A stretch of 64,000 bases of DNA from assembly GCA_012103325.1 (NCBI GenBank), contig WLWY01000001.1, positions 1,279,653 through 1,343,652 of the forward strand, read 5' to 3'. The DNA comes from Alphaproteobacteria bacterium (GTDB lineage Bacteria; Pseudomonadota; Alphaproteobacteria; UBA8366; GCA-2717185). How positions within the stretch are numbered: the first letter of the stretch is position 1; every line of letters starts with the position of its first letter. Shown here piece by piece: positions 10,405 through 16,275 of this stretch. The translations under genes and the position numbers were made by a program. The notes under the pieces are model-generated. The model did not search any database. It was not told the DNA's origin and saw only the letters and a list, made by a program, of their open reading frames with translations.

Positions 10405-11217
10405 ATGGGAACTCGTTTGCAGGATAAAATCGCCATCGTTGTCGGCGCTGGCCAGAGCCCCGGCCCCACGCCCGCCATCGGCAACGGCCGCGCCACCGCC
10501 ATGCTGTTCGCGCGCGAAGGCGCCAAGGTCCTGTCCGTCGACCGTCACCTGGAGTCGGCGGAAGAAACGGCTGAGATAATCCGCAAAGAAGGCGGCGATG
10601 CCGCGGCACACGCCGCCGATGTCACCGTCGAGTCCGACATGCAAGCGATGGTCGATGCGTGCGTCGAACGCTAGGGCCGGGTCGACGTGCTGCACAACAA
10701 TGTCGGGATCAGTGTCGAGGGCGGCGATGCGCCGTTCACCGAGATCACGACGGAGGCGTTCGACAAGATCGTCGCGGTCAATCTGCGCAGCCTCGTCTAT
10801 GCCTGCAAATACACGCTGCCGGTGATGCGGAAGCAGGAGAGCGGCGCCATCGTCAATATCTCGTCGATGGCGGCGTGGTCGAGCTACCCTTGGGTCACCT
10901 ACAAGGCAACCAAGTCGGCGATGATTTCGCTGACCGAGCAATTGGCAATTCAGAACGCAAAATACGGCATTCGCGCGAACGTTATCCTACCCGGTTTGAT
11001 GGACACGCCGATGGCAGTCGATCGCCGCGCCGCGGCCTTCGACCGGCCTCGCGAAGAAATCGCCGCCGAACGCGATGCCAAGGTACCGCTGAAAGGCAAG
11101 ATGGGAACCGGCTGGGATGTGGCCCACGCGGCCCTGTTCCTTGCATCGGATGAGGCCGGCTTCGTTACCGGCGTTACGCTTCCCGTAGATGGAGGTGCCA
11201 GCTGCCGTGTCGGCTAA
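10405..11217 (+). pseudogene. Short-chain dehydrogenase/reductase interrupted by an in-frame TAG
   Basis: The two ORFs 10405-10674 and 10687-11217 are in the same frame and together form one full-length SDR of about 270 codons. The only interruption is TAG at 10672-10674 (ACVER*GRVDVLHNNVG). The nucleotide-binding loop is an extended GAGQSPGPTPAIGNGRATA type; NNVG, the SS pair, YKATK (catalytic Tyr/Lys) and the GGASCRVG end are all intact. A Trp or Tyr codon changed by one base would explain the stop, since an aromatic residue often stands there. It is third in the operon with AKR and CMD-like genes, 11 bases after the latter. It may be a recent nonsense mutation, a sequencing error, or a suppressed codon; only the first two seem likely. 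Confidence 0.85.
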
Positions 11218-12558: not shown

Positions 12559-13284
12559 TTACGTCAGGTATTGGCCGCCATTCGCGGTCAAGGTCGCGCC
12601 GGTGATAAATCCGGCATCGTCCGCGGCGAGAAAGACGACGCAACGGGCAATCTCGGGACATTCGCCGAGGCGTCCAGTTGGGATCAAGGGCAGAATCTTG
12701 GTGTTCAGCACTTCCTCCGGCACCGCACGCACCATCTCGGTGGCGATATAGCCAGGCGCGACGCAGTTCACCGTGATGCCCTTGGCCGCCGATTCCTGGG
12801 CCAATGCCTTGGTAAACCCGATCACGCCGGCTTTGGCGGCAGAATAGTTGGTCTGGCCGAACTGGCCCTTCTGCCCGTTGATCGACGAGATGTTGATGAT
12901 CCGGCCGAAGTTCCGGGCGCGCATCCCTTCGATCACGCTGCGCGACATCGAGAATACGCTGTCCAGGTCGGTGTGGACGACAGACGTCCATTGCTCTGCG
13001 CTCATACGGTGCAACGGCGCATCGTAAGTAATGCCCGCATTGTTGACCAGCACATCCACCGGGCCAAGATCGGATTCGATATTCCCGATTGCCTCCTGGC
13101 AGGATTCGAGATTCGCTACATCGAACTTGTAAACCGGAATATCGGTTTCATCGCGAAACTTGAATGCCGCTTCATCCCGGGTGGCATAGTTCGCCGCCAC
13201 CACATACCCGGCTTCCTTGAGCCCTTTAGATATCGCTTCGCCGATACCGCGTGTACCGCCGGTCACTACCGCCACTTTCGCCAT
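12559..13284 (-). CDS. phaB: Acetoacetyl-CoA reductase
   Basis: This 241-residue SDR is likely the NADPH-dependent reductase that turns acetoacetyl-CoA into (R)-3-hydroxybutyryl-CoA for polyhydroxybutyrate. The start MAKVAVVTGG at 13284 follows AGGGAGAGAAAG. Motifs are GGTRGIGEA (cofactor), NNAGIT, NISSINGQKGQFGQ and YSAAKAG (catalytic Tyr/Lys). The stretch GQKGQFGQTNYSAAKAG and the C-terminus ATLTANGGQYL are characteristic of PhaB against FabG. PhaA and PhaC are not in the window. The ankyrin gene downstream is probably cotranscribed. Confidence 0.9.
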   Translation of the reverse strand: MAKVAVVTGGTRGIGEAISKGLKEAGYVVAANYATRDEAAFKFRDETDIPVYKFDVANLESCQEAIGNIESDLGPVDVLVNNAGITYDAPLHRMSAEQWTSVVHTDLDSVFSMSRSVIEGMRARNFGRIINISSINGQKGQFGQTNYSAAKAGVIGFTKALAQESAAKGITVNCVAPGYIATEMVRAVPEEVLNTKILPLIPTGRLGECPEIARCVVFLAADDAGFITGATLTANGGQYLT

Positions 13285-13501
13285 CTTTCTCTCCCTGTCG
13301 AACAGAGTTACGAACCCCAACGGATCCGCCGGCCAATGACGTGGGACCTAACGCCCATTCGTTCTGCGTACAATGGCATGGGACAATTCGCCGCGCCAGC
13401 GGATTCCCCTTAGCGAATTTGGCGCATCGCGATGACGATTTGATTACAGGCGCGGCGGGATCGGAGCGAGTTTACGAAGACCCCTTGCCGGTCGCCGTGA
13501 G

Positions 13502-14044
13502 TCAGGCGCACAGCATTTCGAGGCAGGCCTCGAACGCGCGCATCGCCGCGAGCGCCTCTTCACCGTTTTCCCCAACAACGGCGATATCACCGCAAGCCTT
13601 CCGGACCGCTTCGTCGATCATGAGATTATCGGTGAGACCGAAGCTTTCGATCAAATGACCGTTCCGGTCGTAGCGCCGCGCATCGCGCTCAACCGCCGGG
13701 CCGAACGCCGCATCGACACGGTCCGTATAGGATGCCGACGTACTGGTATATCCGAAGACTGGTTTGCCTAGCGCAAACATAAGCCCGAGTTCGAAGACCG
13801 TCCCGGCATCCGCGCTGGGTCCGCGAAACGGTGTGAGATTGAACAGCCCGGCATCCGCCCGTCGCATCAGCGCGTGATTTGCTTGAAATATCGATGCGGC
13901 GGTAGCTTCTGCGCCTGCATCCTGGTCCAGCGGAAACAGCCCCTCGACGCCACGCTCTTGGCATAGCTCGCATTTTCGTCTGCCAATCTCCCGCGCGTTA
14001 GGGAGAAAGACATCCGGCCCGGCGAGGTAGATTTTGCAGGTCAT
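13502..14044 (-). CDS. Nucleoside 2-deoxyribosyltransferase
   Basis: This 180-residue protein of the NDT/RCL superfamily (COG3613 type) cleaves or transfers N-glycosidic bonds of (deoxy)nucleosides. The start MTCKIYLAGPDVFLPNA at 14044 matches the family; the longer ORF-track version runs into the SIR2 gene. The catalytic Glu motif is in GPSADAGTVFELGLMFALGK, with KPVFGYT after it and FGLTDNLMID near the C-terminus. It starts 16 bases after the stop of the SIR2-like gene on the same strand, so the two form a unit. Whether it recycles nucleosides or acts on an NAD-derived signal is open. Confidence 0.88.
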   Translation of the reverse strand: MTCKIYLAGPDVFLPNAREIGRRKCELCQERGVEGLFPLDQDAGAEATAASIFQANHALMRRADAGLFNLTPFRGPSADAGTVFELGLMFALGKPVFGYTSTSASYTDRVDAAFGPAVERDARRYDRNGHLIESFGLTDNLMIDEAVRKACGDIAVVGENGEEALAAMRAFEACLEMLCA

Positions 14045-14060
14045 GCTGCGGAATCCCGGA

Positions 14061-15221
14061 TTACGTAAGCCGCGCCTCGGCGCAGAAATCCTCGAACTTA
14101 CCGGGATAGTAAAACACCTTCGGCCACCCCATGCGGTCGATGGAGTTGAACGTCCAGCGCAGCCTTGTATCCAGAATGGGGCTGCCCTTGAGGTCGATGC
14201 AGAAGATGTGTTTGCCCCGCGCATCCTCACCGCTTTCCGCGAGCTGCCGCAGCACGAACCGTACGAGCGCATCTTCCCGTGGCATGCTGTAGCCTACAAT
14301 CACCAGGATGCGGGTCTCGCGCAGAACCCGGACCGCCTTTGGGAAGATTTCCTTGAAGTAGGGATCCGTATAATCCTGTTCGCGGGACGGCAGAATGAGG
14401 ATCGGCGGGTTATTGCGCACGGCCTCGGGCGGGCGATTGCGATACTCGAAATGATAGCCTTCCCGGTCGCGCAGAATTTCGAAACCGCCGTTGAGCTTGA
14501 TCAGATTGTGATCGAATACGCTGCGGCGCTGATCCCAGATCGAGCGGCCGCAGACGAGATGCGGCGTTATGCCGCGATAGAGGCGCCGGTAGATCGGCCG
14601 GTCAGCGGCCCCGAGATTGTCCAATATCGTCTCGATGGTGAAGTCGTAGTTGGTCGTAATGAAATTGAGAATAAGCCCGTCATTGTCGCTGCTCCGGCCA
14701 CCGCACAGCCCGGTCAGATCTTCGAAGAATTTGTGGATGGCCTGCTGGTTTTCGGAGAGGACGGGGGGCGTCGGAAACTTGCTGGTCTCCATATCGATAT
14801 TGTTCAGGTCGCACAGGCTGCGGAACCGGTTCTGGATGAAGGTCCGGATCTCCTGAATGCTGAGTACCAGGCTTTGCTCGTCCAGATAACGGTTCCGGAT
14901 ATCCGGATATTTAAGCTGCATATCGATGACGTATTGCAGGGTCTTGAAACCCTCGAACCCGATCCCGTCATTTTCGTCCCAACCCAACGCCTTGAGGACG
15001 TGCGACAGGTTCTTGAAGGTCTCGATTTCAGCACGGGAAATCGAGAACAAGGTCCCTTCCGTCGGCGATTGCGGATTCCACGCCTTGGAAAACCCGGCAC
15101 CGCCCCAAAACGTCATCGTTCGCAGGGCTGCCAGGCTCTCATCGTCTTGCGATAACTGTTCTGCGATATCGCGAAATGCCGCGACGGCGGTCTGTCGTTC
15201 GTCCAAGGCGGCCTTGTCCAT
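14061..15221 (-). CDS. SIR2-like domain protein
   Basis: This 386-residue protein carries a SIR2-like Rossmann domain. Evidence is the N-terminal glycine loop WGGAGFSKAW (about residues 38-47), the LNFITTNYDFTIE motif near residue 190, and the late RILVIVGYSMPREDALVRF. In many SIR2-like proteins the catalytic base lies in KLHG; here the corresponding segment reads LIKLNGGF, so the His appears replaced by Asn. GGGAAG precedes the ATG at a good distance. The deoxyribosyltransferase gene follows after 16 bases. SIR2-like domains of this type are NADases in several antiphage systems; this protein could be such an effector, or an inactive binder. No transmembrane segments are seen. Confidence 0.82.
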   Translation of the reverse strand: MDKAALDERQTAVAAFRDIAEQLSQDDESLAALRTMTFWGGAGFSKAWNPQSPTEGTLFSISRAEIETFKNLSHVLKALGWDENDGIGFEGFKTLQYVIDMQLKYPDIRNRYLDEQSLVLSIQEIRTFIQNRFRSLCDLNNIDMETSKFPTPPVLSENQQAIHKFFEDLTGLCGGRSSDNDGLILNFITTNYDFTIETILDNLGAADRPIYRRLYRGITPHLVCGRSIWDQRRSVFDHNLIKLNGGFEILRDREGYHFEYRNRPPEAVRNNPPILILPSREQDYTDPYFKEIFPKAVRVLRETRILVIVGYSMPREDALVRFVLRQLAESGEDARGKHIFCIDLKGSPILDTRLRWTFNSIDRMGWPKVFYYPGKFEDFCAEARLT

Positions 15222-15357
15222 ACCAGCTTCCCAACGGTGTCAGCGCAACGGTGTGCGATACTTAGATGTAAATATTATGAACACGCGGATATTCGCACAC
15301 GCGTCCATAAACGAAGTAGCATCAAAAAGACAGCAGCAACACACGGAGACCGAAGTC

Positions 15358-16275
15358 ATGGCAGTCGATTACGAGAAACGCGACGGCGTCGCCTACATCA
15401 CACTCAACAACCCCGAGAAGGCGAATATCCTCGACAAAAAGACGTCGGATGCGATCTCCGAAGCGTGGATCGACCTATGGGAAGACCGCGACATTCGCTG
15501 CGCAATCCTGACCGGCAAAGGCGACCGGCATTTCTGCGGCGGCCATAACCTCGCACCGCGCCCGGAACTGAGCGAGGAAGAGCGTGAGATGCTCAAGACG
15601 CAGCGCATCTTCTGGCCGCTGGCAGGTACGGTGCACGGCACACCGACCGGTGTCGACGGCCGCATGGGCGACCACTATCCGAGAGTCTGGAAACCGATCA
15701 TCGCTGCCGTCAATGGCTGGGCCGCCGGCGCAGGACTCTACATTTTGCTGGCATCCACCGACATCCGTATCGCGAGCGCCGAACACGCGCGGTTCAAGTT
15801 CGCCTTGCTCAGCCAAGGCTGGCTCGGCCACGGTCCGGGCGCGAGCCTACTCATCAAGCAACTTCGTTATATCGACGCGATGAAGACCCTCCTTACCGAC
15901 GAACCTTTCGATGCTGCCGAAGCGTTGCGCATCGGGCTTATCAATGAAGTCGTACCGCACGACCAACTGCTGGCGCGTGCGGAAACAATGGCGCGGCAAA
16001 TCGTTTCCATGCCGCCGGTCGCGGTGCGCATGATGAAGGAGTTCGTGGTCCGGTTCGGCGACCTGCCGACCGATCAGGCGTGGCATGTCCAGAACCTGAT
16101 CAACACACTGTTGATCCAGACGACAGCGGATGGCGAGGAAGGCCGCCAGGCTTTCAACGAAAAGCGGCCACCCAATTTCACGGGGGCACTGCGCAAACGC
16201 GGCGAACCATTCACCGACATTTCGGAGGAAGACGCGGCCCGGCTCGAAGAAATCTACCGCAGCGGTGAGTTCTAG
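15358..16275 (+). CDS. Enoyl-CoA hydratase/isomerase (crotonase) family protein
   Basis: This 305-residue crotonase-fold protein acts on a CoA thioester. The ATG at 15358 (MAVDYEKRDGVAYITLNNPE) follows ACGGAG; the ORF-track start is far upstream in the SIR2 gene. Oxyanion-hole segments are FCGGHNLAP and AAVNGWAAGAGLYILLASTD. At 305 residues it is longer than the usual 260, with an insertion after GGHNLAP and an extended C-terminus. It is divergent from the SIR2/NDT pair. The precise substrate is not identifiable. Confidence 0.88.
   Translation: MAVDYEKRDGVAYITLNNPEKANILDKKTSDAISEAWIDLWEDRDIRCAILTGKGDRHFCGGHNLAPRPELSEEEREMLKTQRIFWPLAGTVHGTPTGVDGRMGDHYPRVWKPIIAAVNGWAAGAGLYILLASTDIRIASAEHARFKFALLSQGWLGHGPGASLLIKQLRYIDAMKTLLTDEPFDAAEALRIGLINEVVPHDQLLARAETMARQIVSMPPVAVRMMKEFVVRFGDLPTDQAWHVQNLINTLLIQTTADGEEGRQAFNEKRPPNFTGALRKRGEPFTDISEEDAARLEEIYRSGEF

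Follow-up and report, generated by a model that had tools for sequence, protein, structure and literature searches.

A SIR2-like protein with asparagine at the catalytic histidine site, encoded beside a nucleoside 2-deoxyribosyltransferase gene in an alphaproteobacterial genus

Introduction

The usual present-day interpretation of SIR2-like proteins in bacteria is that they are suicide NADases. Where such a protein is encoded directly upstream of a nucleoside 2-deoxyribosyltransferase (NDT), as in the 64,000 nucleotides of an alphaproteobacterial genome analyzed here (contig WLWY01000001.1; this whole stretch is called the window), the question arises whether the two genes form a defence unit or belong to nucleotide metabolism.

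The SIR2 effectors with which the protein invites comparison, namely ThsA of Thoeris, DSR2, the SIR2 protein of SIR2-HerA/Nezha and pAgo-linked SIR2, have in common with it the SIR2_2 Rossmann fold, a GAG(F)S loop, the Asn of the TTNYD motif and a C-terminal GYS...D. In ThsA, the substitutions N112A and H152A each abolish cleavage of NAD+, the latter with an additional effect on the integrity of the oligomer (PMC7272460). The FAM118 noncanonical sirtuins, which are antiphage-like, were reported to process NAD in ways other than classic deacylation; of these, FAM118A/B keep the active-site His and need it for activity (PMC12700824).

Results

Both genes are encoded on the minus strand, the SIR2-like gene (14061..15221, ATG start, 386 aa) lying first and the NDT gene (13502..14044, 180 aa) 16 nt downstream. 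The gap between the SIR2 stop and the NDT start (14045..14060) is compatible with one transcript, and the two genes are probably co-transcribed. The operon-like spacing described in a sequence-only reading of the window was thus confirmed, and its domain calls agree with Pfam profile searches, in which the SIR2-like ORF matched SIR2_2 (PF13289) with E=1.5e-8 and 35.3 bits (gathering cut-off 24.5) and the NDT ORF matched PF05014 with E=4.7e-36. A longer, mechanically called NDT ORF (13502-14272) was dropped, since homologues align only from MTCKIYLAGPD. Across congeners dN/dS amounted to 0.05-0.11 for SIR2 and, where dS was estimable, to 0.18-0.22 for NDT; with purifying selection on both, they are regarded as real genes and not as chance ORFs. 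The 136 nt that separate the SIR2 start codon from a divergently oriented gene for an enoyl-CoA hydratase (15222..15357) are the presumed promoter site and contain no convincing match to the sigma-70 consensus; no tRNA or Rfam element was seen near the two genes.

The enoyl-CoA hydratase gene (15358..16275, plus strand) and, on the other side, a short-chain dehydrogenase (SDR) gene (12559..13320, minus strand) are flanks of a block that gene comparison found to be syntenic with the congener G003. It comprises an adenylate cyclase-like gene, ABC permease, CaiB, enoyl-CoA hydratase (ECH), SIR2, NDT and SDR, followed by an ankyrin protein, a further SDR, a carboxymuconolactone decarboxylase-like gene and an aldo-keto reductase (Cyc-ABC-CaiB-ECH-SIR2-NDT-SDR-ANK-SDR-CMD-AKR), several of these neighbours being named from sequence and others by Pfam. 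Given neighbour identities of 65-96%, the block looks vertically inherited. Between congeners, identity reaches 88-93% for the enoyl-CoA hydratase (three congeners), 84% for SIR2 and 55-61% for NDT, which evolves faster than most neighbours at the locus. The earlier description of the surroundings as metabolic, and not as a defence island, holds for this syntenic locus: no mobile or defence genes were seen near the pair, and the partner genes of Thoeris, DSR, SIR2-HerA and SPARSA are absent next to it, the neighbours being NDT, SDR and ECH. PADLOC returned only weak SIR2 matches for the SIR2 protein and none for the NDT, and phage records held no relative of the window SIR2 protein. Elsewhere in the window, another SDR gene (10405-11217, plus strand) is split over two frames by a frameshift or an assembly error; intact 270-aa copies of it are present in G003 and G004.

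The AlphaFold2 model of the SIR2-like protein (pLDDT 87.5, pTM 0.89) found its best PDB folds by Foldseek in the SIR2 protein of SIR2-HerA (E 1e-8), ThsA and DSR2, then in sirtuins, with TM-scores of only 0.3-0.6. A search of PDB sequences with the SIR2 family profile found nothing, so that the fold search was needed; against viral structure models the same model gave no significant match. Membership in SIR2_2 follows from the Pfam match above the cut-off together with the SIR2 fold. Of its motifs, GAGFSKAW (41-48), GYSMPREDAL (310-319) and the previously noted ITTNYD-type motif (TTNYD, 189-193) are present, and K242-L-N244-G-G takes the place of K-x-H-G-S.

This last exchange characterizes a whole family. 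While all 52 Asn-type members keep the nicotinamide-site Asn of [TS]TNYD, the catalytic His site reads K-x-N-G-G in 51 of them, the remaining copy being frameshifted, as opposed to K-x-H-G in 12 of 13 fetched ordinary SIR2_2 proteins (the other has I-H-G), a second SIR2_2 protein of the window genome being among the 13. In a profile-profile alignment to eight ordinary SIR2_2 proteins (98% probability), TTNYD fell on TTNYD, and N244 of the window protein was matched to the His within K-x-H-G-S. All 38 aligned rows have N191 and N244, the glycine loop is likewise kept, and YRG (215-217), Q282 and Y284 are invariant residues specific to the family. As judged from these alignments, the window protein is a member of a distinct, coherent Asn-type family of SIR2_2, from which the His at the position of ThsA H152 is absent. 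Hence the analogy to NADase effectors lacks one of its defining residues, and the claim of NADase activity is lowered, though another nucleotide activity would be compatible with the missing His and the Asn might still allow hydrolysis. The window protein further differs from those effectors in having no fused sensor domain, and its family differs from FAM118A/B in the lost His. The same genome encodes a second SIR2_2 protein with the ordinary His motif YKIHGSINW (L079, C9:93334).

The pairing with NDT reaches less far than the SIR2 family. It is present in three of five genomes of the genus (the window genome and four congeners), G002 and G003 having kept the tandem in the order and close spacing of the window; in G004 the corresponding place between SDR and enoyl-CoA hydratase is occupied by NDT with no SIR2, and G001 has neither gene. 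Among 99 genomes, the window's own and those of relatives, the SIR2 gene was found in three and NDT in 16, or 17 with the window's own. The sequence-only reading had named an NDT found mostly apart from SIR2 as evidence against a two-gene unit, and this is largely what was seen: of 16 relatives in which NDT was matched, 14 lack SIR2 and two have it (12 of 14 lack it if strong NDT matches only are counted). A SIR2 match of any kind was obtained in 4 of 399 genomes of the phylum. In 289 alphaproteobacterial genomes, SIR2_2 matches (51 genomes) and above-cut-off NDT matches (33 genomes) were nowhere side by side beyond the window genome, as judged by eye from contig coordinates, and a pattern scan with one genome per species gave 51 SIR2-family loci, with NDT nearby only at the two congener loci. 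No SIR2 relative outside the genus adjoins an NDT, and thus neither co-occurrence nor adjacency extends across genera and the tandem is a genus-level arrangement. The open-access literature yielded no paper on a SIR2-NDT or a nadC-SIR2 pair.

The nearest solved relatives of the NDT are nucleoside 2-deoxyribosyltransferases, e.g., 2a0k of Trypanosoma brucei, and 6qai. They belong to the same sequence family (PF05014), and the catalytic Glu, Asp and C-terminal Asn align to 2a0k. Conserved are YLAGP (Y6), SADAGTVFELG (D79 and E85) and DNLM (N140), whose Tyr, Asp, Glu and Asn we take to be the active-site residues of NDT enzymes. The protein differs from 2a0k and 6qai by about 20 additional residues and a distinct C-terminal segment. 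Structure prediction from three sequences gave no usable model (pLDDT 44.5). In several relatives the gene adjoins an inositol-phosphatase-type (CysQ-like) gene and not SIR2, and in other hosts of the SIR2 family NDT lies elsewhere in some genomes and is absent from others, two searched Salinicola genomes having none. By its residues the NDT is probably active and best read as an ordinary salvage enzyme.

A different linkage emerged from the maximum-likelihood tree, in which the window gene falls, with support of 100/100, into a 23-member clade. Sixteen of these members follow nadC, ten directly and mostly with a 4-nt gap, six after nadC plus a fusion gene, and three members precede NDT; an eleventh copy directly after nadC (L071) is frameshifted and was left out of the tree. 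The fusion joins PhnN (ribose 1,5-bisphosphokinase) to a putative thymidine phosphorylase of the TIGR02645 type, a relative of the AMP phosphorylases. The earliest branch, a Rhodospirillaceae MAG (L045), has the order nadC-PhnN-phosphorylase-SIR2, with a phosphorylase identity of about 45%, which suggests that the linkage of the clade with NAD and PRPP metabolism is old; the independent lineages behind the linkage to nadC number about two, namely the genus Salinicola and this one alphaproteobacterial MAG contig. That the adjoining nadC might be a second, paralogous copy was rejected, as it is the sole nadC in the searched Salinicola genomes, and the L045 genome likewise has a single copy. In Salinicola the nadC, PhnN and AMP-phosphorylase-type genes are operon-like neighbours of close relatives of the window protein, which itself has NDT beside it instead, the only nadC of the window genome lying far from the SIR2 gene. 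The members from Larsenimonas, Halotalea and Caenispirillum are also away from nadC. Gene calls at these loci stem from a codon-usage caller and not from curated annotation. At L045:3693-6574 and L039:5055-7993, where nadC is followed by the fusion gene, the ribose of nucleotides may be recycled into PRPP that serves NAD synthesis.

The other 29 tree members come from a wide range of phyla, and a few adjoin defence genes. An Asn-type SIR2 gene directly follows Gabija GajA and GajB in a Desulfatitalea MAG (L059:3687-9188), another lies between type III Res and Mod (methyltransferase) genes and overlaps Res (L060:4973-12129), and a third (L023) adjoins a helicase that PADLOC lists in a candidate group. 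In P2-like prophages, five members (L092-L096) have an AbiL-like ATPase as their partner; phage records held no relative of this prophage form. With known defence genes beside these distant and prophage members, the family taken together may include a defence function. The sequence-only reading had proposed a test for enrichment near defence genes; for the window and its clade no enrichment near defence genes or on mobile elements was seen, whereas distant members do lie near defence genes.

Discussion

As judged from sequence and model, the SIR2 protein, and not the pair, appears to be the element of interest, having one metabolic-looking branch and some defence-linked relatives elsewhere. 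From sequence, fold and neighbourhood we infer a metabolically retained Asn-type SIR2 which acts on or senses pyridine nucleotides and is co-transcribed with an ordinary salvage NDT, a reading that we consider to have an even chance of being right. The SIR2-like protein would then be a Rossmann-fold processor or sensor of pyridine nucleotides, kept as a metabolic gene and not as a defence effector. With the TNYD Asn and the glycine loop kept, it would bind NAD+ or a related nucleotide, and because the general-base His is missing, it would presumably not be a fast NADase; its role may lie in the homeostasis of NAD, PRPP and nucleosides, with the NDT swapping bases between deoxynucleosides in salvage. 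Of the salvage role that had been mentioned earlier as a further option, the part concerning NDT stands as the better fit, whereas for SIR2 the nadC of its relatives suggests a link to NAD and nucleotides instead.

The two-gene NAD-depleting or signalling unit put forward in the sequence-only reading found no support. As an abortive-infection or nucleotide-signalling system against phages, SIR2 would deplete NAD+ in response to a signal that the NDT-like enzyme produces or removes, and a fold closest to SIR2-HerA, ThsA and DSR2, the distant Asn-type members beside GajA-GajB, type III Res/Mod and the AbiL-like ATPase of P2-like prophages, and the NDT-like active sites discussed for ThsB of Thoeris (PMC11204291) all speak in its favour. 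Yet the cited NADases have His where the window protein has Asn, PADLOC hardly responds, the NDT is kin to ordinary NDTs and bears the nucleoside-transferase signature, and the clade has no defence partner, in contrast to those effectors. Since the pair is limited to one small genus and to a stable, genus-conserved metabolic locus, in whose vicinity neither mobile nor defence genes were seen, it does not have the look of an anti-phage unit, and we hold this explanation to be very improbable. More weight is due to the view that the genes are incidental neighbours with unrelated functions, a resident NDT having gained an upstream SIR2-like gene or one lineage having lost it. The solitary NDT of G004, the faster divergence of NDT (about 60% identity versus 84% for SIR2), as expected for uncoupled genes, and the lack of NDT near any family member outside the genus and in the two searched Salinicola genomes agree with it; the spacing and order kept in both SIR2-bearing congeners do not, nor do the SIR2 relatives that run in the same direction as genes for other N-glycosidic or phosphoribosyl enzymes of nucleotides, which suggest a shared theme. 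On the whole it is possible but doubtful, and as regards one shared pathway of SIR2 and NDT the adjacency may be incidental.

Within the preferred reading of a metabolically retained SIR2, a special case would be a catalytically dead pseudoenzyme that senses NAD(H) or ADP-ribose and regulates nucleotide enzymes. The family-wide loss of the general base, next to an invariant nicotinamide-site Asn and glycine loop, and the position of relatives next to nadC, a biosynthetic gene, are consistent with this, but the strong conservation of the full pocket (YRG, Q282, Y284) fits altered catalysis as well, and we think this case rather unlikely.

For the family at large, a more speculative proposal, which we would call unlikely as it stands, is that the Asn-type proteins carry out a changed N-glycosidic reaction on nucleotides, of the pyridine or another kind, with one branch in NAD, PRPP and nucleoside metabolism, to which nadC, the PhnN-nucleoside/AMP phosphorylase fusion and NDT would be interchangeable partners, and others recruited to defence as effectors, in the company of Gabija, type III restriction-modification and AbiL-like ATPases. 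A large and coherent His-less SIR2 family beside a single-copy nadC, as in the examined Salinicola, offers a direct test of whether housekeeping roles, too, are filled by SIR2 folds, and cautions against naming every SIR2_2 gene a defence gene.

On the defence-linked side, the AbiL-like ATPase and Asn-type SIR2 of the P2-like prophages are a candidate two-gene defence system. The AAA ATPase gene lies 2-13 nt upstream of SIR2 (L094:3751-6062, L092:3668-5990; also L093, L095 and L096), and the pair is sited between replication and portal/terminase genes; it was read in detail at two loci, at one of which PADLOC scoring covered the ATPase (L094, AbiLi, E=8e-57). A Pseudoalteromonas megaplasmid (L025:6874-9134) carries two different SIR2-like genes in tandem, the first with an LHG (His) motif, as read by eye, and the second of the Asn type.
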